Positions 8,823 through 25,519 of a stretch of 33,334 nucleotides of DNA are shown one piece after another (within the stretch, counting starts at the first letter, position 1; each line of letters opens with the position of its first letter). Origin of the DNA: a virus; IMG/VR virus record IMGVR_UViG_3300029798_000294, positions 1 through 33,334 of that record. The stretch is one strand, 5' to 3'. The notes beneath the pieces were generated by a model that was not told where the DNA came from, did no database searches, and saw nothing but the letters and a program-made list of their open reading frames with translations. The position numbers and the translations under genes are program-made.

Positions 8823-9377
8823 TTATGCTAAGGGTTTAACGTCTTCTTTCAGCAAATCAAACAGATCATCGGACAGGGCGGAGATGGTAAAGCGCTGATT
8901 CGCCTCTCCTTTGGTAAAAGGAATATCCCAGGATACAATCGTGATCCGGGTAATATCATAGATCTTCAGCAGGTCACATTCTACATCCAGGGCCTCGGTG
9001 GCTTCACAGAACTCTCTCAGTTTTCTTACATCTTCTTCAGGATATACATTCGCATCTTTGAGGTTGATCAGCACACCTTCAATCGTTACCTGGTAATCAT
9101 CCTGAGTCCAGCGTTCTTTGATCGTGCCGCGCCCCTTTCCCTTTGAAACAGTCCGTTTTGCAATTACATTCCCTCCCGAAATGCTCACCAGGGGTTCCAC
9201 CGGCACCGTCCATGACTCTTTCTCATGGAAGGCCAACTTCAGAGGCATCACCATTGCAAAGCCATTGCCGTTACTTGGCTTGTCGGTAGTGGCACCATCA
9301 GATGAAGCAAGCAATGTCACATCCGCGCTATTGCCTTCATTGAGATTGATCCGTACCTGGTTAATGATGAATTCCAT
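8823..9377 (-). CDS. DUF6046-like tail protein
   Basis: A 184-residue protein lying between tape measure and hub genes, where Mu has gene N (gp43). A conserved-looking core reads RTVSKGKGRGTIKERW followed by QDDYQVTIEGVLIN and VRKLREFCE, which I recognise from the DUF6046 group of Bacteroidota phage tail proteins. No transmembrane segment or catalytic motif is seen. The start overlaps the stop of the tape-measure gene by 1 bp. A role in attaching the tape measure to the baseplate hub is likely but inferred from order. Confidence 0.65.
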   Translation of the reverse strand: MEFIINQVRINLNEGNSADVTLLASSDGATTDKPSNGNGFAMVMPLKLAFHEKESWTVPVEPLVSISGGNVIAKRTVSKGKGRGTIKERWTQDDYQVTIEGVLINLKDANVYPEEDVRKLREFCEATEALDVECDLLKIYDITRITIVSWDIPFTKGEANQRFTISALSDDLFDLLKEDVKPLA

Positions 9378-11335
9378 TATGAGTTTGCTTGAGCTAAGGC
9401 CATGGCCCTATTTAATGAATCTAAAATCTTGGTCTGCATCTCCTCGATTGATTCGGTAAATGTTTCTTTCGAGCTGATATTAAGTGTCCCGATCAAATTC
9501 TTTAAATTGAACGTATTGTTTACATTCTTACTACCACCGGTTACCACCGTATCGGAAGATGACTTACTGCTGGATGGACCTGCTTGTGTTTTCTTCGTTT
9601 TCGCTCCAGGAAGTTCCGGGGGTTCGATGGTTGCACCAGGCACGTAGGCTCCCGGCATGAATGGAGCATTCAAAGGTTTCTCGCTGGTGGGTGCGCTTAC
9701 ATATTTCGAATAGGATGCTTTTGCCACCGTTTCAGGGGTAAAGGCTGTTTTTACAACCTCCTTGGCCGCACTTGCTGCATTAGTTACCGCGGTAACCCCT
9801 GATAGATCCAGGGCGCCCTGCTTGGCATCTTTCCATGCTCCTTTGAAATCACCTGTAAACAGTTTATAGATGGCAGATCCCAGGGATCCGATCCCGGAGA
9901 TGATCCCCTTGATCCGATCCAGTACGAAATCCTTCAGGATCCCACCGAACCCTTTCATTACCTCCCATACCGATTTCACGGCATTGCGGAAGCCTTCAAA
10001 CTTATTCCAGGCATACACCACTCCTGCTACCAAGGCAGCAACACCCAGTACAATCCAACCAATGGGCGAGGCGATGAAGGCTGCATTGAGTAACCACTGT
10101 GCCGCTGTCCACACGCCGGTTGCAGCTGCAGCGACTCCCTCTGCGATGGCGGCCTGCATACTTACCAGGGTAACCAGTCCAACGACGCCTTGAATGGCCA
10201 TCACGCCTATTTTAAACGCAGGCAGCGCTCCTTTGGTCATGTTAAACAGGCTAATCCCCCAGTCTTCAACGCTGGCCTTTACACGGCCCATTTTTTCAGA
10301 GAAGCTGCCCATTACGATGCCCGCCTGTTCCTGGGCGGATTTGGTGCCAGATATGACCGTGGTATACCTGCCTATCTCATCCGTGCCGCTGATCAGTGCA
10401 AGGGCTGCATTCTGGTTTTCCTTCCCAAAGAGCTTGGTGATCAGTGCAGCATCATTCATAGCCGGTTTAAGCTGGTTTAACCGGTCGCGGAAGCTTAGGG
10501 ATGTGTTTCCCAGGGCATTCAAATCCACACCAGCCTTGGCCAGGGCTTTCTGCGTCTCGGGAGGAAGGAACCTTCCTTCAGAGAGAGTAGCCAGAACGTT
10601 TCGTATGGCCACGCCTCCCTCAGCGCCCTTCTTGCCAGCTTTATCCAATACCTGGATCGCTGCATTGAGCTCCTCAAAAGATACTCCCGCCATCTTCGCG
10701 GCCATCCCGGAGTTTTCCAGAGCGGCTTTAATCGCAGGTAGTTCGGCAGATCCTTCTTTCGCTGCAGCAGCCATCACGTTCATCATCTTGGCCATCTCTG
10801 CAGCTGCTACGGTTGGATCATCCAGGGAGACCTGAAACTGATTCATGGCCGTGGTGAGTACCTCGGTGGCACCGGTGGTGTCACCTCCCATCGTTTTACT
10901 CAGGGTTGATACCGCTTCACCCATGGCCTTTAGAGCTGCAGGGGTCTTTGCAATATCGGGGCCTAACTGGGAAAGGATGAGCTTGTAGGATTCAACGCCT
11001 TTTGCTGCAGAGCCGCCGAAGATCTTTGCATTCTCCCTGGCATAGCCTTCGATCTCCTTGAGTTTGTCCCCGGTGACCCCGGTGATGGCCGAAAGGTCAG
11101 CCATTGCGCTGTTGAGCTTCACACCCGGTTCGATGGCTGAGTCCAAGGCTGTAGAGACACTATCGATCGCGCTTTTGATGTTATTGGCCGCGAAGGCTGC
11201 CATACCAACCTTCTGAACAGCAGACTGCAGCGAAGTGGTTGACTTCGCTGCAGCTGCGGCAGTAGAACTTATCGCGTTTAAGCCTTCGGTAGCATTGCCG
11301 GCAACATTGATGGTATAGGTCGTTGTACTACTCAT
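9377..11335 (-). CDS. tail tape measure protein
   Basis: A 652-residue protein rich in Ala, Lys and Gly. Residues 75-345 match the TP901-type tape-measure core (SAMADLSAITGVTGDKLKEI, GGDTTGATEVLTTAMNQF, SFEELNAAIQVLDKAG). A long hydrophobic region at 374-443 could insert into the host membrane on DNA injection. The C-terminal part is Pro/Ser/Thr-rich and then helical. If tape measures span about 0.15 nm per residue, tail length would be about 98 nm, comparable to other myoviruses. Preceded by a chaperone with a possible frameshift extension, as is usual for this gene. Confidence 0.9.
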   Translation of the reverse strand: MSSTTTYTINVAGNATEGLNAISSTAAAAAKSTTSLQSAVQKVGMAAFAANNIKSAIDSVSTALDSAIEPGVKLNSAMADLSAITGVTGDKLKEIEGYARENAKIFGGSAAKGVESYKLILSQLGPDIAKTPAALKAMGEAVSTLSKTMGGDTTGATEVLTTAMNQFQVSLDDPTVAAAEMAKMMNVMAAAAKEGSAELPAIKAALENSGMAAKMAGVSFEELNAAIQVLDKAGKKGAEGGVAIRNVLATLSEGRFLPPETQKALAKAGVDLNALGNTSLSFRDRLNQLKPAMNDAALITKLFGKENQNAALALISGTDEIGRYTTVISGTKSAQEQAGIVMGSFSEKMGRVKASVEDWGISLFNMTKGALPAFKIGVMAIQGVVGLVTLVSMQAAIAEGVAAAATGVWTAAQWLLNAAFIASPIGWIVLGVAALVAGVVYAWNKFEGFRNAVKSVWEVMKGFGGILKDFVLDRIKGIISGIGSLGSAIYKLFTGDFKGAWKDAKQGALDLSGVTAVTNAASAAKEVVKTAFTPETVAKASYSKYVSAPTSEKPLNAPFMPGAYVPGATIEPPELPGAKTKKTQAGPSSSKSSSDTVVTGGSKNVNNTFNLKNLIGTLNISSKETFTESIEEMQTKILDSLNRAMALAQANS

Positions 11336-15720: not shown

Positions 15721-16746
15721 TTATGAAGTTGCGTCGGCTGAATAAATAGCTGCGATAGCGGTTGCACGGAGCGGAAGGGCACAATACCGCATCTGGAAGT
15801 TGATCACGTCACCTTTGTTATCAGGATCGGCGTATTTTGCGAACATTTCGGTTGTTCCCATAGCCTTCATCACTTCATCTTTGTGATAGGCAAAGGAAGA
15901 ATGCGTATCGGTCTCAGCTGCTACGGCAGCATAGGCTGCTTTAACACCGGTCGACACGTTATAAACCGGCGTTGCTGAAGTGCGGTATAGTTTGAATCCG
16001 AACAGCATTCCGTTGACCATGGCACTGCGGTACATGGTAAGATCCTCGGCGATCAGATCAGCCTCGTGTTTTGGATTAAGCACCAGGATTCGTCCATCGG
16101 CAGGAATATCAAGGTCATTAAATTTGACCATCAGAGCAATGACATCCATGAAACTCATGGATTTCTTTCCAAGGGCATTGGCCTTGCCGGTTGTGGGTAA
16201 TACCGGAGTTAAGGTTGCATTCGAAGAGGGTGCCCAGTTCCATGCGGCCAGTTTACAGGCAGTTTTCAGAAGTTCCTGCTTATGCCCGTAGATCACCGAT
16301 GACATTTTGTCGTAGGATAACTCCATCGCTTCTACGTTGCGGACAACCGTGGAAGTGGTATCGAGGGTCTTCAGTGCGAGTTCCTTCGGTACGTCGGTAC
16401 GGGATGTCACGGCAATGGGATAAGATGTATTATCAATGAGCACGGTAGGATTCGCTCCAACCTCGGCCAGGTTGATCTTATTGAACTCTACCAGGGAAGA
16501 CATATCCCTCGCCTCGGAGATGAATGAATTCTCAGGATAAAACTTCTCCAGCAGGATATCGGTCCAGATCTCCTTCTGCAGACCGGCCATGAGGACTGAT
16601 CCGTTATTAGAGAAGGAAAGTAATGTTCCCCCGACGATCGAGGCTCCGATGGCCAGGGCGGGTGTGATGGCAAACAACAGCGCTGCAGTCAGTGCGACGA
16701 GCGTGTTGAACAACAGGTTCGAAAAATTGAGTTTCTTTGCTTTCAT
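15721..16746 (-). CDS. major capsid protein with hydrophobic N-terminus
   Basis: A 341-residue protein encoded immediately after the protease/scaffold gene, in the place of Mu gpT. The mature-like part from about residue 53 starts MAGLQKEIWTDILLEKFY, as in capsid proteins of Bacteroidota Mu-like phages, and continues with KVELSYDKM-like and DGRILVLNPKHEADL motifs (here AMELSYDKM). Residues 1-52 are unusual: a basic start (MKAKKLNFSN) and a hydrophobic stretch LFNTLVALTAALLFAITPALAIG, which looks like a signal anchor. It may be a cleavable delta-like region that keeps precursor capsids at the membrane or at the portal, removed by the protease. The family recognition is by eye. Confidence 0.8.
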   Translation of the reverse strand: MKAKKLNFSNLLFNTLVALTAALLFAITPALAIGASIVGGTLLSFSNNGSVLMAGLQKEIWTDILLEKFYPENSFISEARDMSSLVEFNKINLAEVGANPTVLIDNTSYPIAVTSRTDVPKELALKTLDTTSTVVRNVEAMELSYDKMSSVIYGHKQELLKTACKLAAWNWAPSSNATLTPVLPTTGKANALGKKSMSFMDVIALMVKFNDLDIPADGRILVLNPKHEADLIAEDLTMYRSAMVNGMLFGFKLYRTSATPVYNVSTGVKAAYAAVAAETDTHSSFAYHKDEVMKAMGTTEMFAKYADPDNKGDVINFQMRYCALPLRATAIAAIYSADATS

Positions 16747-16751
16747 TGGGG

Positions 16752-17204
16752 TTATGAGTGTTTGGGTTTATACGCTTTTTTCAGAGCTTCAAATTCCTGA
16801 GGCTTTTCAGCGGCAAGTTTCTGAAGGCCCCTGGGATCTTCCTTGCTCCATTTCATGTAATCCCATGAAGTGCGGTCTTCTGCTTTGGGATCACCGGCAG
16901 GTTTTACCTGGGCGGAGAGGACTGTTTTAACCGGCATAGCCGAAATCAGGTCCTTAGCCTGGGCCAGGTCGCTTTCGGCAAGCTTCAAGAAGGATTCCTT
17001 TTTGTCAGCCGTGAGGCGTCCTTCGGTGATGGCGCCTTCCACCAGGGTGGTTGCCTGGGCGGTGAGGTGAGCCTTCAGGGCATCCTCTGCGGTCTTTTTC
17101 TCGGCAGCCAGCTTCATGATAGCGGCGCTCAGAGCCGGGCCTTCAGGCTCGGTACTCACGGCTAAAGCTGCTGCAGCCTCGGCCGTTAAAATGATTTTAT
17201 TCAT
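16752..17204 (-). CDS. possible internal scaffold gene, Mu gpZ-like
   Basis: Within the protease gene an in-frame ATG at 17204 would start a 150-residue Ala/Lys/Glu-rich helical protein, corresponding to the scaffold portion alone. Mu is known to express scaffold gpZ this way from within gene I. No strong ribosome-binding site is visible before the ATG, but most genes here also lack one. The start is at the domain border between protease (ending SLRLSSRD, then a linker) and scaffold, which supports the idea. Confidence 0.4.
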   Translation of the reverse strand: MNKIILTAEAAAALAVSTEPEGPALSAAIMKLAAEKKTAEDALKAHLTAQATTLVEGAITEGRLTADKKESFLKLAESDLAQAKDLISAMPVKTVLSAQVKPAGDPKAEDRTSWDYMKWSKEDPRGLQKLAAEKPQEFEALKKAYKPKHS

Positions 17205-17690
17205 TGTTTCGGGTTCGTTTTTATTGATTGTTATCTGGTCTATTGCAAGTTTGATGTCGGCGCCTGTTTCCAGCAGCTTACCGTCGCGGGATGAAAGACG
17301 AAGCGAAAGAGCATTGCTGGGAACAGAAACGACGCTTCCTTCCATCAGTTCACTCTTGGTCACTACAGCGATAAAGCCCAGAGTAGGAACTTCTCTCAGC
17401 TCGGCCTCCAGGGGAACGATCCAGGGCGATGCGCCACGGATGAAATTGCGATCTACCTGTCCCATGATCTTCTTGGCCTCCTCGTCCGCATCATCAAACA
17501 CGGGATCTGCCAACAGACGGGTTCCTTCAATGCGAACATTATCCCAGCGGCCAATGACTTTTTCAGGATCATGTTGGTGCAGCATCACCGGGTTGTCCTT
17601 GAACCGGGAAAGGTCGATGCCTGCATTAAGCAATATGAATCCACGATCATTGACTCTCGTTTCATCATTAAATACAAAGGGTTTAGCCAT
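16752..17690 (-). CDS. prohead protease with C-terminal scaffold domain (Mu gpI/Z-like)
   Basis: A 312-residue protein when started at 17690 (MAKPFVFNDETRV), which follows the predicted promoter. The longer frame beginning at 17786 would run through the promoter boxes and is rejected. The N-terminal 170 residues have the pattern of phage head-maturation proteases: VMLHQHDPEKVIGRWD with candidate catalytic His, then RNFIRGASPWIVP with candidate Ser, then VVSVPSNALSLRL. The C-terminal part from MNKIILTAEAAAAL onward is a long Ala/Lys/Glu-rich helix, as expected for a scaffold. Mu makes gpZ scaffold from an internal start in gene I; the same may happen here at 17204. Confidence 0.8.
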   Translation of the reverse strand: MAKPFVFNDETRVNDRGFILLNAGIDLSRFKDNPVMLHQHDPEKVIGRWDNVRIEGTRLLADPVFDDADEEAKKIMGQVDRNFIRGASPWIVPLEAELREVPTLGFIAVVTKSELMEGSVVSVPSNALSLRLSSRDGKLLETGADIKLAIDQITINKNEPETMNKIILTAEAAAALAVSTEPEGPALSAAIMKLAAEKKTAEDALKAHLTAQATTLVEGAITEGRLTADKKESFLKLAESDLAQAKDLISAMPVKTVLSAQVKPAGDPKAEDRTSWDYMKWSKEDPRGLQKLAAEKPQEFEALKKAYKPKHS

Positions 17691-17743
17691 GTTTTTTAAT
17701 CTTTTAACTGTACTTTGGGCAGTTACCTGATCGGTTGAGCGGG

Positions 17744-17778
17744 CAAACATACATTCATAGTTTCCCAGAAACAACAAA
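17744..17778 (-). promoter_or_regulatory. predicted leftward late promoter (Bacteroidota type)
   Basis: On the minus strand TATGTTTG (17751 to 17744) is an exact match to the Bacteroidota -7 box TAnnTTTG. TTTG lies at 17778-17775, 23 bp upstream, and a TTG at 17774-17772 is 20 bp upstream; both fit the -33 box. Transcription would start near 17736, about 45 nt before the protease ATG at 17690. It would drive the capsid, lysis and tail genes down to Dam. Confidence 0.65.
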
Positions 17779-17820
17779 GCTTCCAAGGGTTAGAAGGTTC
17801 CTTCTAAGGCTTAGAAGCTT
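17777..17820. promoter_or_regulatory. nested 44-bp palindrome, candidate late operator
   Basis: Perfect inner arms TTAGAAGG (17790-17797) and CCTTCTAA (17800-17807) flank a 2-bp centre, and outer arms AAGCTTC (17777-17783) and GAAGCTT (17814-17820) flank these with 6 bp on each side, so the whole is symmetrical about one centre. Read as half-sites, it holds four copies of a CTTAGAAG-like 8-mer, one degenerate. It adjoins the -33 box of the leftward promoter and lies just upstream of the rightward terminase gene, so a dimer or tetramer bound here could control both late operons. Confidence 0.65.
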
Positions 17821-17822
17821 TC

Positions 17823-17853
17823 TTTACAAAATGACCTTTATCATCCATTTTTG
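17823..17853 (+). promoter_or_regulatory. possible rightward late promoter
   Basis: CATTTTTG at 17846-17853 differs by one base from the Bacteroidota -7 box TAnnTTTG, and TTTA at 17823-17826, 19 bp upstream, resembles the -33 box. Transcription would start only a few bases before the terminase small-subunit ATG at 17864, so the leader would be very short. The match is weaker than for the leftward promoter. Confidence 0.35.
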
Positions 17854-17863
17854 CAGAAAAACA

Positions 17864-18322
17864 ATGGCCCTTAAAAAGGTTAGATCCCGCAATCCCGAGA
17901 AAGAAGAATACGCTTACCTGCTTTTCATGCAGCGAGTTTCTCAGGAGGATATCTGCAAGCGAGTAGGCGTCACGGCTCCCACCCTTAAATCATGGAAAGA
18001 CTCAGGCGCCTGGGAAGATAAGCGTGCATCACGCACGATCTCCCTGGATGATCTCATGCAGAAAGCCTTGAAACGGGTCAATGAGATCCTTGACAGCAAG
18101 GAGCCCTTCAACGCCGATTCCTTTGCAAAGGCTGTCAAGCAGCTTAAAGAGCTCAAGACCACCAATACCATCGACGACGATATTTATTGCTTTATGGCCT
18201 TTCAGGATTTCCTCATCCAGAAGCGCAGTGAATACGATATCACCGACTCCTTCATCAAAATGGTGACCAAGTTCCAGGACATCTTCATTCAATTCCGTTT
18301 AGGGAATGGCAAACTTTCGTAA
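17864..18322 (+). CDS. terminase small subunit-like protein
   Basis: A 152-residue protein when started at 17864 (MALKKVRSRN); an earlier ATG at 17735 would pass through the operator region and is unlikely. Residues 25-50 form a helix-turn-helix (VSQEDICKRVGVTAPTLKSW followed by KDSGAW), the DNA-binding part used by small terminases to recognise packaging DNA. The C-terminal part is helical. The gene is first in the rightward operon and overlaps the large-subunit gene by 17 bp. The slot matches Mu gp27 (DUF1804). Confidence 0.75.
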   Translation: MALKKVRSRNPEKEEYAYLLFMQRVSQEDICKRVGVTAPTLKSWKDSGAWEDKRASRTISLDDLMQKALKRVNEILDSKEPFNADSFAKAVKQLKELKTTNTIDDDIYCFMAFQDFLIQKRSEYDITDSFIKMVTKFQDIFIQFRLGNGKLS

Positions 18323-20585: not shown

Positions 20586-21752
20586 ATGGATAAGAAAAAA
20601 ACAACGGGTAAAAAGAGAGCTGACGGGTATGCAATGAAAGTTCAGCCCAAGGCGATCAGTCAGGCCCGAAACGATATTGCGACATGGAAGATGGCCGTAC
20701 GACAGGCGCTGGCTATCCTGATGCCACGCCGTGCCCGCTTGCAGAACTTGTATAAGGATATCGCCATCGATGCACACTTATCCTCCCAGATCGAGAACCG
20801 TGTCCTGCAATCCCTGGCTGCTACTTTTTCACTTCGTGATCAGGGCGGAAAGATCAATGAAGAGGCTACTGCAACTCTCAAGGACAGCAAATTCTATTAC
20901 GACCTGGTACGTAATATCCTGGACTCAATTTATTGGGGCCCCACGGTGGTGGAGATTCTTAACGATGCCTCAGGAGTGAAGGTTGTAACCATTCCCCGCA
21001 ATAACATCGAACCCAAAGAAGGTCTGTTCCTCGTTGATGAGAACGACACCACCGGGATCCCATACCGGGAGCTGAAGGAATTTAATACCTGGATCCTGGA
21101 GTTTGGAGAAGCGGAGGATCTCGGGTTATTTAACCGTGCCATCCCGCATGTACTCTTCAAACGCTTTGCCCAGTCATGCTGGAGTGAACTTTGCGAGATT
21201 TACGGGATGCCGCCCCGCGTGCTAAAGACCAACACACAGGATCCCACGATGCTTTCACGAGGCGAACAGATGATGCGGGACATGGGAGCCGCAGCCTGGT
21301 TCATCATTGACGAGAGTGAAACTTTCGAGTTTGCCAAGGGTGCAGACAGCAATGGCGATGTATATAGCAACCTGATCCGCCTTTGCAACAATGAAAATTC
21401 GTTATTGGTGTGCGGAGCCATCATTGGACAGGATACCAAGAACGGCAACGAAAGCAAAGAGACGATTTCTATTGGAATGCTCTCACGCCTGGTGGACTCG
21501 GACAAACGCCGGATTGAAAGCTATTTCAACGACCTGGTTCTGCCCGCCCTGGTGCGTATCGGATTGATCCCTGATAACCTGCATTACACCTACGATCCCC
21601 AGGAAAACATTACTCTGCTCTGGAGCATGACTAAGGAGGTCCTGCCTTATATGGAAGTGGACCCGGTATGGGTGAAAGAGAAATTCGGCATCCAGGTTAC
21701 CGGCATTAAAGCGACCCCGGCCAAGGCGCAGCTTTCCAGTTTTTTCGATTAA
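20586..21752 (+). CDS. portal protein, DUF935 family (Mu gp29-like)
   Basis: A 388-residue portal, started at 20586 (MDKKKTTGKKRADG) because the earlier in-frame codons lie inside the DUF1320 gene. The family pattern is clear: MPRRARLQNLYKDIAIDAHL near the start, the FYYDLVRNILDSIYWGPTVV helix-strand region, and the C-terminal QENITLLWSMTKEV. It forms the twelve-fold ring through which DNA enters. The gene ends with AGT TTT TTC GAT TAA, in which six Ts and a C form a -1 slippery heptamer, followed by a hairpin; the MuF gene is in the -1 frame (see the site at 21740..21768). Confidence 0.9.
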   Translation: MDKKKTTGKKRADGYAMKVQPKAISQARNDIATWKMAVRQALAILMPRRARLQNLYKDIAIDAHLSSQIENRVLQSLAATFSLRDQGGKINEEATATLKDSKFYYDLVRNILDSIYWGPTVVEILNDASGVKVVTIPRNNIEPKEGLFLVDENDTTGIPYRELKEFNTWILEFGEAEDLGLFNRAIPHVLFKRFAQSCWSELCEIYGMPPRVLKTNTQDPTMLSRGEQMMRDMGAAAWFIIDESETFEFAKGADSNGDVYSNLIRLCNNENSLLVCGAIIGQDTKNGNESKETISIGMLSRLVDSDKRRIESYFNDLVLPALVRIGLIPDNLHYTYDPQENITLLWSMTKEVLPYMEVDPVWVKEKFGIQVTGIKATPAKAQLSSFFD

Positions 21753-21768
21753 GCCCCTTTGAGGGGCT
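21740..21768 (+). promoter_or_regulatory. candidate programmed -1 ribosomal frameshift site, portal to MuF
   Basis: The heptamer T TTT TTC (21740-21746) stands in the right phase in the portal frame, whose codons are TTT at 21741-21743 and TTC at 21744-21746. Both tRNAs can re-pair one base back. After a 5-nt spacer a stem begins: AGCCCC at 21752-21757 pairs with GGGGCT at 21763-21768 around a TTTGA loop. The -1 frame is then open for 39 codons up to the GTG at 21863 and through the MuF gene. A second GGGGCT at 21781-21786 might offer an alternative pairing. This is the standard layout of a -1 frameshift signal. Confidence 0.75.
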
Positions 21769-21862
21769 CCATAGCCGACTGGGGCTCATATACCACCGCC
21801 ATGAGGATGAAGCCACAGGCGTCGCCCTGGGGGCCAAGAGTGAAAAAATACCGCCTTTCTCA

Positions 21863-22621
21863 GTGAGGATATGGAATGCAGCCGTGAATCATATCCGCAA
21901 ATCCGGAACTTATTCGGCCAAGATGCTTAAGGATAAACCGGTCAAGGCTGTAATCAGTGAGACGCAGCGGATCCTGGACGATGGCATGCAATCCGGACTG
22001 AGCGATAATGAGCCGCCTCAGCAGATGACCGATAGTTTAAGAAGTGATGTCTTTGTTTTCTCTGCCTGCAAAACACATATCCAGCTGAAGGAACTTTCAT
22101 CCATGCTGTTGAATGATCAGGGTAAGGTCACCCCGATGAGTGAGTTTAAGCAAAAAGCCACGGAACTGCACCAGCAGTATAATGGGAATTACCTGGAGGC
22201 AGAGTATGTCTTTGCGACCTCCAGCGCGCAGATGGCTGCCCAATGGGCTGATGTGGCCCAGAGTGAAAATCGTTACGACCTCCAGTATCGCACGGCAGGA
22301 GATAGCCAGGTGAGAGAAACGCACCGAAGACTCTCCAATATCACCCTGCCTGCAGATGATCCGTTTTGGGACGCGTATTATCCACCCAATGGATGGCGCT
22401 GCCGTTGCACAGCTATTCAGGTTCGTAAAGGGAAATACCCGCAGAGCGATTCCAATGAGGCCATCACACGTGGTGAAATTGCAACAACAGAGATCGATGC
22501 TCAGGGAAACAACCGTGCCGAGATGTTCCGATTTAATCCCGGCAAGCAGCAGGTGATCTTTCCTCCCTCGCATCCGTATTACAAAGTGAAGGAAACCGTT
22601 ACTAAAAACGTGAAGCAGTGA
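21863..22621 (+). CDS. MuF-type head morphogenesis protein (Mu gp30-like), probably expressed as portal fusion
   Basis: Counted from the GTG at 21863, 252 residues; the reading frame is open upstream to 21710 without an ATG. The MuF signature is at residues 138-182 (DLQYRTAGDSQVRETHRRL, then ADDPFWDAYYPPNGWRCRC). Its Cys residues at 180 and 182 are usual for the family. MuF proteins bind the portal inside the head in few copies. The 39 codons before the GTG read like protein (GLIYHRHEDEATGVALGA), and the N-terminal part would be short for the family without them. I infer that the real product is a portal-MuF fusion of about 678 residues via the -1 site. Separate translation from the GTG, whose first bases overlap a 21-codon ORF stop, is the alternative. 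Confidence 0.85.
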   Translation: MRIWNAAVNHIRKSGTYSAKMLKDKPVKAVISETQRILDDGMQSGLSDNEPPQQMTDSLRSDVFVFSACKTHIQLKELSSMLLNDQGKVTPMSEFKQKATELHQQYNGNYLEAEYVFATSSAQMAAQWADVAQSENRYDLQYRTAGDSQVRETHRRLSNITLPADDPFWDAYYPPNGWRCRCTAIQVRKGKYPQSDSNEAITRGEIATTEIDAQGNNRAEMFRFNPGKQQVIFPPSHPYYKVKETVTKNVKQ

Positions 22622-24707: not shown

Positions 24708-25103
24708 TTATGCCGTTTGATGGTCAATTTCGGAGTGGATTAAATTACGAAGTGTATTTTCATAAATGGATTCAGTGGGGATATTCAGAATATAAAGCAT
24801 GTGATGGATGGCCGCAGCTTCTGCAACAGTAAACAGGAGTTTGAACATTGGTTTGAGATCCATATGCTTTGGGCGGATCTTCTTTTCATACACCTGGTGC
24901 ACGATGAAATAAGTTGCTTTCTCAAATAAATCTCCATTAAAACAAGTTGTAGCAAGGTAAAGAACCATCAGCCGGTCGAAGGATTCGAACTGGGATTGAC
25001 CCAGGCGGATCTCAATCTTTTTTCTCAGCATCGCGATCTCGATCATGCGGCCTCGACTCGTCTGCATCATTTCTCGGCCATTAAACTGAGTTAATTGTTC
25101 CAT
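24708..25103 (-). CDS. hypothetical protein, middle region
   Basis: A 131-residue largely helical protein, with EIAMLRKKIEIRLGQSQFES and LMVLYLATTCFNGDLFEKAT. No membrane segment or known motif. Its start overlaps the stop of the gene at 25091..25519 by 13 bp, which ties it to that gene. I do not recognise it. It is in the same position as other unknown genes between gemA and the late activators of Mu-like phages. Confidence 0.6.
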   Translation of the reverse strand: MEQLTQFNGREMMQTSRGRMIEIAMLRKKIEIRLGQSQFESFDRLMVLYLATTCFNGDLFEKATYFIVHQVYEKKIRPKHMDLKPMFKLLFTVAEAAAIHHMLYILNIPTESIYENTLRNLIHSEIDHQTA

Positions 25104-25519
25104 AATTCGGCGTTTAAATACGTTTCTACGAACTTTTTCGCTGTGCCTGGTAGAATGTTCCCCTCATATCGTGAAATAAAGCGGTAGGATTTAATTTGAT
25201 CGGTCTTGCTCATTTTATTCCATTTGGCGATGGCCCGTTTCTTCGAAGATCTCATTTTATCGTCATATCGGTCCCAAAACATCTGGAAAGTAACCTCCTC
25301 GGTAAACTCGGTAAGCTTTGCCGTTTTCGAAGTACCCAGGATCCTTTCTATTTCATCCACCGTCTTGGGCATTTCACCAATGAGCCATTTCATTTGTGCC
25401 TGGTTTAGCTGGGCCCCGGATGAATTATACATCACCAGGTAGCCATCTTCATCAAATTGCAGGATCACTTCGCCGGTGAACTGCTGAGAAGTAAGCGAGA
25501 AGGTCCGTTCAGCTTTCAT
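25091..25519 (-). CDS. hypothetical protein with replication-organiser-like C-terminus
   Basis: A 142-residue protein. The C-terminal 70 residues (FWDRYDDKMRSSKKRAIAKW, NKMSKTDQIKSYRFISRYEG, then AKKFVETYLNAELW) follow a pattern seen at the end of phage replisome-organiser or helicase-loader proteins and of several Bacteroidota phage proteins: FW, Y, K, A, W, then a YLN-W end. The N-terminal part is beta-rich. Start and stop overlap both neighbours by about 11-13 bp. A role in replication is possible but not shown. Confidence 0.6.
   Translation of the reverse strand: MKAERTFSLTSQQFTGEVILQFDEDGYLVMYNSSGAQLNQAQMKWLIGEMPKTVDEIERILGTSKTAKLTEFTEEVTFQMFWDRYDDKMRSSKKRAIAKWNKMSKTDQIKSYRFISRYEGNILPGTAKKFVETYLNAELWNN

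Follow-up and report, generated by a model that had tools for sequence, protein, structure and literature searches.

The tail assembly chaperones G and GT of phage lambda, which are not virion components, are produced by a −1 frameshift that Xu, Hendrix and Duda are said to have reported in 2004. In phage SPP1, the 17.5/17.5* frameshift uses the heptamer UUUUUUC (PMC6316719), and frameshifting also extends the C-terminus of a share of some virion proteins, namely the T3 capsid, the major head and tail proteins of Lactobacillus phage A2 and proteins of Listeria phages (PMC5009743). Portal and MuF functions occur on one polypeptide in Microbacterium phages of clusters EA3/EA5/EA8 and EB, where they are encoded as in-frame fusions (PMC7302621). 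Here, we describe the junction of the portal and MuF genes in a 33,334-nucleotide stretch of viral DNA (IMG/VR record IMGVR_UViG_3300029798_000294, positions 1 to 33,334, hereafter the window), in which the gene for the MuF minor head protein directly adjoins the gene for a Mu-type portal. An earlier note, made from the sequence alone, had proposed that the two are joined by programmed frameshifting. The conservation of heptamer and stem, the selection on the intervening linker and the codon constraint at the site all support this proposal, and the junction is very probably a −1 programmed ribosomal frameshift cassette that would give rise to a portal-MuF fusion.

The 3′ end of the portal gene in the window reads AGT TTT TTC GAT TAA, placing T TTT TTC in the zero-frame phase required of an X_XXY_YYZ heptamer, at the position that had been proposed for it (Table 1). 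The spacer GATTA and the GC-rich hairpin that follow were likewise found, the stem folding as 7 bp with a UUG loop instead of the 6 bp given in the earlier note. The −1 frame was said to be free of stops from the slip site through MuF, and it is in fact open from 10 codons 5′ of the heptamer to 22621. Its first ATG lies at about 21923, already within the MuF domain, and its first start codon, GTG at 21863, 39 codons past the slip site, is the only conventional start (ATG, GTG or TTG) ahead of that domain. The junction combines the features of a −1 frameshift cassette, with a slippery heptamer, a 3′ structure within 5–9 nt downstream, a protein-like −1 open reading frame (ORF) and conservation of the site beyond what the amino acids need.

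Table 1 Features of the portal-MuF junction in the window (AF2, AlphaFold2; pN/pS, ratio of nonsynonymous to synonymous differences)
Feature	Position	Strand	Product or evidence
Mu-type portal gene	20586..21752	+	Zero-frame product 388 aa, 43.9 kDa, C-terminus ...LSSFFD*; Pfam Portal_Mu PF06074, E 1.6e-66; AF2 model resembles JBD30 and Mu portals
Slippery heptamer T TTT TTC, zero-frame phase	21740..21746	+	Kept at the portal end across homologous portal clusters
5-nt spacer GATTA	21747..21751	+	Overlaps portal stop TAA 21750-21752
Putative stimulatory hairpin AGCCCCT-TTG-AGGGGCT, 7 bp, UUG loop	21752..21768	+	Folding; stability at set position and covariation in homologues
Trans-frame linker (RLSPFEGLHSRLGLIYH...), translated only after −1 slip	21746..21862	+	−1-frame pN/pS; conserved motif; AF2 helix, then flexible stretch
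MuF domain, minor head protein, −1 frame	21863..22621	+	Pfam PF04233, E 8.7e-15; high AF2 confidence

Under this mechanism, ribosomes translating the portal would meet U_UUU_UUC one codon before the stop and would be stalled by the hairpin 5 nt downstream. In some of them, both tRNA-Phe would re-pair one base back, from UUU UUC to UUU UUU, and reading would continue CGA UUA AGC... to yield a portal-MuF fusion of 678 aa (calculated mass 76.8 kDa), while the others would stop one codon later and release the 388-aa portal. Fused subunits would then co-assemble in the portal ring, tethering MuF at the portal vertex inside the head, and the number of MuF copies per head would be set by the efficiency of slippage. 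By analogy with gp7 of SPP1 (PMC6316719), a fusion making up a minority of portal subunits would reproduce the MuF copy number. MuF of many relatives carries a polymorphic-toxin domain at its C-terminus, which would be tethered along with it.

To survey the junction in homologues, portal and MuF alignments were searched against viral contigs, genome contigs, a collection of phages and Bacteroidota genomes; alignment queries were used instead of a single-sequence scan of viral sequences, which gave one distant relative only. The 286 sequences scored by portal and MuF profiles fell into 187 portal clusters at 90% identity, a sample biased towards relatives of the query because such searches return the best hits. 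A slippery heptamer at the portal end with MuF downstream was present in 162 of the 187 clusters (TTTTTTC in 134, AAATTTT in 18, TTTTTTT in 8 and CCCTTTC in 2). TTTTTTC lay exactly 10 nt 5′ of the portal stop in 126/187 clusters, the remaining 36 of the 162 carrying A_AAU_UUU, U_UUU_UUU, C_CCU_UUC or UUUUUUC at another spacing. The −1 frame was open after the slip in 162/162 clusters, but this is partly inherent in how slip sites were assigned and was not used as independent evidence. The signal was missing from distant Mu-type portals, from Winoviridae portals like that of FPSV-S1 and from a small number of loci that are broken or truncated. In three loci (L076, L079 and L212), the site is kept and the frame is broken deeper in MuF, and in L244 the portal frame itself is broken.

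The conservation that the earlier note had called for extends to highly diverged homologues, in which both heptamer and stem are kept. MuF matches came from seven further genomes belonging to the same bacterial family, and each of seven loci (L004-L010) has a portal ending in T TTT TTC plus one codon and a stop, with MuF in the −1 frame. In one of these, L010, MuF is 27% identical to that of the window and the stem differs (CCCCGG...CCGGGG). Human faecal phage contigs (L011-L013) and a Hankyphage-type prophage (L016) likewise encode the −1 peptide FFRxxP, and the heptamer is retained in relatives whose portals share just 25–30% identity. Relatives range from environmental phages to Hankyphage of the human gut and Porphyromonas phages, the site recurring independently in metagenomes, isolates and type strains. 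By comparison, in-phase TTTTTTC occurs within portal bodies once per 67,469 codons. Synonymous constraint, another expectation of the earlier note, is also evident, as consecutive phenylalanines are encoded by TTT TTC in 135/142 clusters at the portal end and in 7/54 inside portals.

In place of TTTTTTC, Peternella has A_AAA_AAA and L277 has G_GGA_AAG, while four loci without a strict heptamer have near-slippery sequences at the same place: G_GUU_UUU in L231, C_CUU_UUU in L108, G_CUU_UUU in L198 and G_GAU_UUU in L077. G_GUU_UUU and G_GAU_UUU are shift sites in RNA viruses. The substitute heptamers of the survey fall in the classes H_HH.U_UU.Y and V_VV.A_AA.R, which are among the most efficient in Escherichia coli (PMC4066793), and UUUUUUC, AAAUUUU, UUUUUUU and CCCUUUC all fit the first of these. 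This replacement bears on whether RNA polymerase, rather than the ribosome, slips at the T run and produces mRNAs in the fused frame. Most members have a run of six Ts, some a run of at least seven, and it is the length of this run that sets several in-frame fusions (e.g., L188) apart from the frameshift type, as transcriptional slippage might predict, but the six Ts and C (T6C) give way to A_AAU_UUU or C_CCU_UUC in unchanged position and phase. Ribosomal frameshifting, unlike polymerase slippage, depends on codon phase and on a hairpin at 5–6 nt, and six Ts are short for efficient transcriptional slippage. We therefore regard transcriptional slippage as highly improbable.

The hairpin downstream of the heptamer is conserved in position and stability. 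In homologues, the 50-nt segment starting 5 nt past the heptamer had a mean minimum free energy of −16.3 kcal/mol (mean z −2.4), compared to −7.5 to −9.8 kcal/mol in six segments taken elsewhere (z −0.1 to −0.6). A downstream reverse complement of the six bases at heptamer +6 was present in 66% of sequences when searched in their own sequence and in 11% when sequences were swapped. A stem of at least 5 bp was present in 132/134 TTTTTTC clusters, and of at least 6 bp in 126/134, with a spacer of 5–6 nt in 105 of the 132 homologues with a stem. Single stem columns alternate among C-G, G-C, A-U and U-A, indicating that the structure, and not the sequence alone, is conserved. A stable G+C-rich hairpin immediately past the portal stop could also act as a transcription attenuator or an mRNA-stability element, the frame change then being a relic or an assembly error. 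However, no T run follows the hairpin in the window, the heptamer is coupled to the hairpin by a fixed spacing, and a site found independently in metagenomes, isolates and type strains is difficult to attribute to assembly. Of the explanations considered, this one has the least to recommend it, with a probability close to nil.

The linker between slip site and MuF domain was described in the earlier note as reading like protein, and its pattern of substitution is that of a translated sequence. Past the hairpin, pN/pS in the −1 frame is 0.30 (bootstrap 0.24–0.36; 25 independent, deduplicated ungapped pairs), compared to 1.20 and 1.50 in the other frames. A recurrent motif, [F/Y]xGLHxRLxxLY, lies in the linker upstream of the GTG, where AF2 places a helix at trans-frame residues 6–19; conserved sequence thus extends upstream of the GTG, which the earlier note had proposed to check. 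The MuF domain is modelled with high confidence (predicted local distance difference test score >90), beginning near trans-frame residue 41.

These results also bear on an alternative in which the heptamer is incidental and MuF is translated as a protein of its own, through termination-reinitiation or from a non-AUG start such as GTG 21863. The GTG is present in the window just where AF2 begins the first helix of the MuF domain, and separate starts have precedents in phage Mu, whose MuF gene has its own ATG and an annotated ribosome-binding site, and in Hankyphage. But this GTG is not kept in relatives such as L005, no ATG is in reach in 116/162 clusters, and 39 clusters, the window among them, lack ATG, GTG and TTG alike over the whole stretch between the upstream −1 stop and a point 40 codons after the slip. 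A stop closes the −1 frame no more than 2 codons upstream of the heptamer in 47 clusters. Given these start-less clusters and early stops, conventional initiation cannot explain the conserved linker, and a separate start would leave the heptamer, the hairpin and the protein-type constraint on a then untranslated linker without explanation. Separate initiation is thus very unlikely, though a little less so than transcriptional slippage. In Elizabethkingia phage TCUEAP3 (L287, 2318-2594), the annotated minor head protein starts 275 nt past the portal end, whereas the −1 frame, following TTTTTTC and a hairpin, runs open all the way from the portal; this start is likely mis-annotated, as in other records of the group.

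In nine clusters, portal and MuF form an in-frame fusion, most of which retain heptamer and hairpin. L089, L226, L240, L245 and L246 have an in-phase T_TTT_TTT followed by a GC hairpin, and in Porphyromonas phage 007a_Bg4 (L288, 1016-3577) the single portal-MuF ORF of 853 aa contains T_TTT_TTC in phase together with a hairpin of 8 bp. After a −1 slip, translation would terminate 21 codons on in this phage and 21–33 codons on in the group, and would therefore yield a short portal, reversing the logic as in dnaX. The short distance to the −1 stop is at chance level, and the retention of heptamer and hairpin is beyond chance. We predict from these sequences that the in-frame-fusion clade makes a short portal by slippage. 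When 127 portals are placed on a tree, T6C is the common state, AAATTTT needs at least four changes and in-frame fusion at least four, these being forced by the starred branches. In Flavobacterium covae AL-02-36 (L188), one extra T (T7C for the T6C of its close relatives) joins portal and MuF in one ORF; either recoding was recently exchanged for fusion in this lineage, or the extra base is a sequencing error.

Several loci weigh against portal-MuF frameshifting as a general rule. Some in-frame fusions (L092 and L233) have no strict heptamer. MuF is started separately, without a heptamer, in the Winoviridae relatives FPSV-S1 and pippi8-1, in phage Mu and in distant Mu-type portals, so Mu-type heads as a whole do not require the fusion. 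Homologues with their own MuF ATG and no heptamer, which the earlier note had named as evidence against recoding, therefore do exist (phage Mu, some Winoviridae), but they lie only outside the main clade and mark the boundary of the feature rather than a refutation. Hankyphage p00 (L290, ~2543-2549) has heptamer and hairpin and, downstream of both, an annotated MuF ATG overlapping the portal stop (ATGGTGA), so that free MuF might also be made there.

Taken more broadly, we consider it reasonably likely that frameshift efficiency controls the stoichiometry of the portal vertex in most Mu-like Bacteroidota phages, the portal being a 12-mer mosaic of plain subunits and subunits bearing MuF, often with a toxin, and that lineages with zero-frame fusions kept the signal for the short portal, inverting the recoding and preserving the mixture. 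If so, a low-copy head protein would be placed at a single vertex by fusion to a minority of subunits of the very ring that marks it, portals would be chemically mixed and not strictly 12-fold symmetric, and most annotated MuF start codons in the group would be suspect. The repeated swaps among heptamers, and between recoding and gene fusion, provide a natural experiment in how frameshifting evolves.

The identity of the portal was supported by structure prediction. A Foldseek search of the PDB with the AF2 model of the portal matched the portals of JBD30 (E 2.7e-13) and Mu (E 7.3e-10), indicating a genuine Mu-type head module, while the MuF model had no solved relative in the same type of search. 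The window also contains a sheath gene, a tape measure gene (9377-11335) and Mu-like transposition genes. Head genes are split (15721-18322), with protease and major head protein on the − strand diverging from terminase, portal and MuF on the + strand. In the window, the protein ends right after the MuF domain and carries no C-terminal toxin domain. The median trans-frame ORF is 460 aa, many relatives extend MuF by 150–250 aa, and a papain-fold toxin (Gln_amidase) domain is present at the MuF C-terminus of L016, L067 and L155, with a weak, sub-threshold CdiA_C match in L005. The same slip would therefore tether polymorphic toxins to the portal, which suggests a route by which MuF-linked toxins could be loaded into heads. 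When the other gene ends of the window were scanned for a second frameshift, one in-phase TTTAAAC was found, leaving the portal site as otherwise the sole signal with a long −1 ORF. This TTTAAAC lies 28 nt before the end of a gene on the − strand (25091-25519), and although the gene that follows is in the −1 frame, it starts at an ATG of its own, which makes recoding improbable there.

No description of a portal-MuF frameshift was found in the open-licence PMC papers searched (main texts), including the GeneTack survey, PRFect and papers on Hankyphage, Porphyromonas phages and MuF toxins, or in the available part of a 2016 recoding review. PRFect names MuF-like genes solely where it lists apparent false positives. 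That this is the first description is thus probable rather than assured, since the search was limited to these texts.

Compared to the described systems, the gene context is new. The junction would share with lambda G/GT and SPP1 17.5/17.5*, the latter using an identical heptamer, the decoding mechanism, a minority C-terminal fusion within a phage morphogenesis operon and conservation over great distances. The products of those genes are tail chaperones, however, whereas the proteins that would be joined here are a portal and a MuF minor head protein, and the pair does not lie between the major tail protein and the tape measure as lambda G/GT-type chaperones do. In T3, A2 and Listeria phages, coat or tail proteins are extended mostly by Ig-like domains; at this junction, it is MuF, a morphogenesis family in its own right, that would be joined to the portal. 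The Microbacterium fusions place the same two functions on one polypeptide but as single genes, while Bacteroidota phages would join them by recoding, with in-frame fusion derived in several lineages. Phage Mu gp29/gp30 (portal/F) has the same gene pair and order and a homologous portal, but gp30, with its own start, has no frameshift signal, unlike the window. Retroviral Gag-Pol, in which a frameshift fusion brings a minor component into the particle at a fixed ratio, involves unrelated genes and is an analogy of logic only. The same is true of bacterial dnaX, in which frameshifting yields the shorter product (PMC5009743), as predicted for the in-frame-fusion clade, whose reversed logic makes it a new evolutionary form of an established mechanism.
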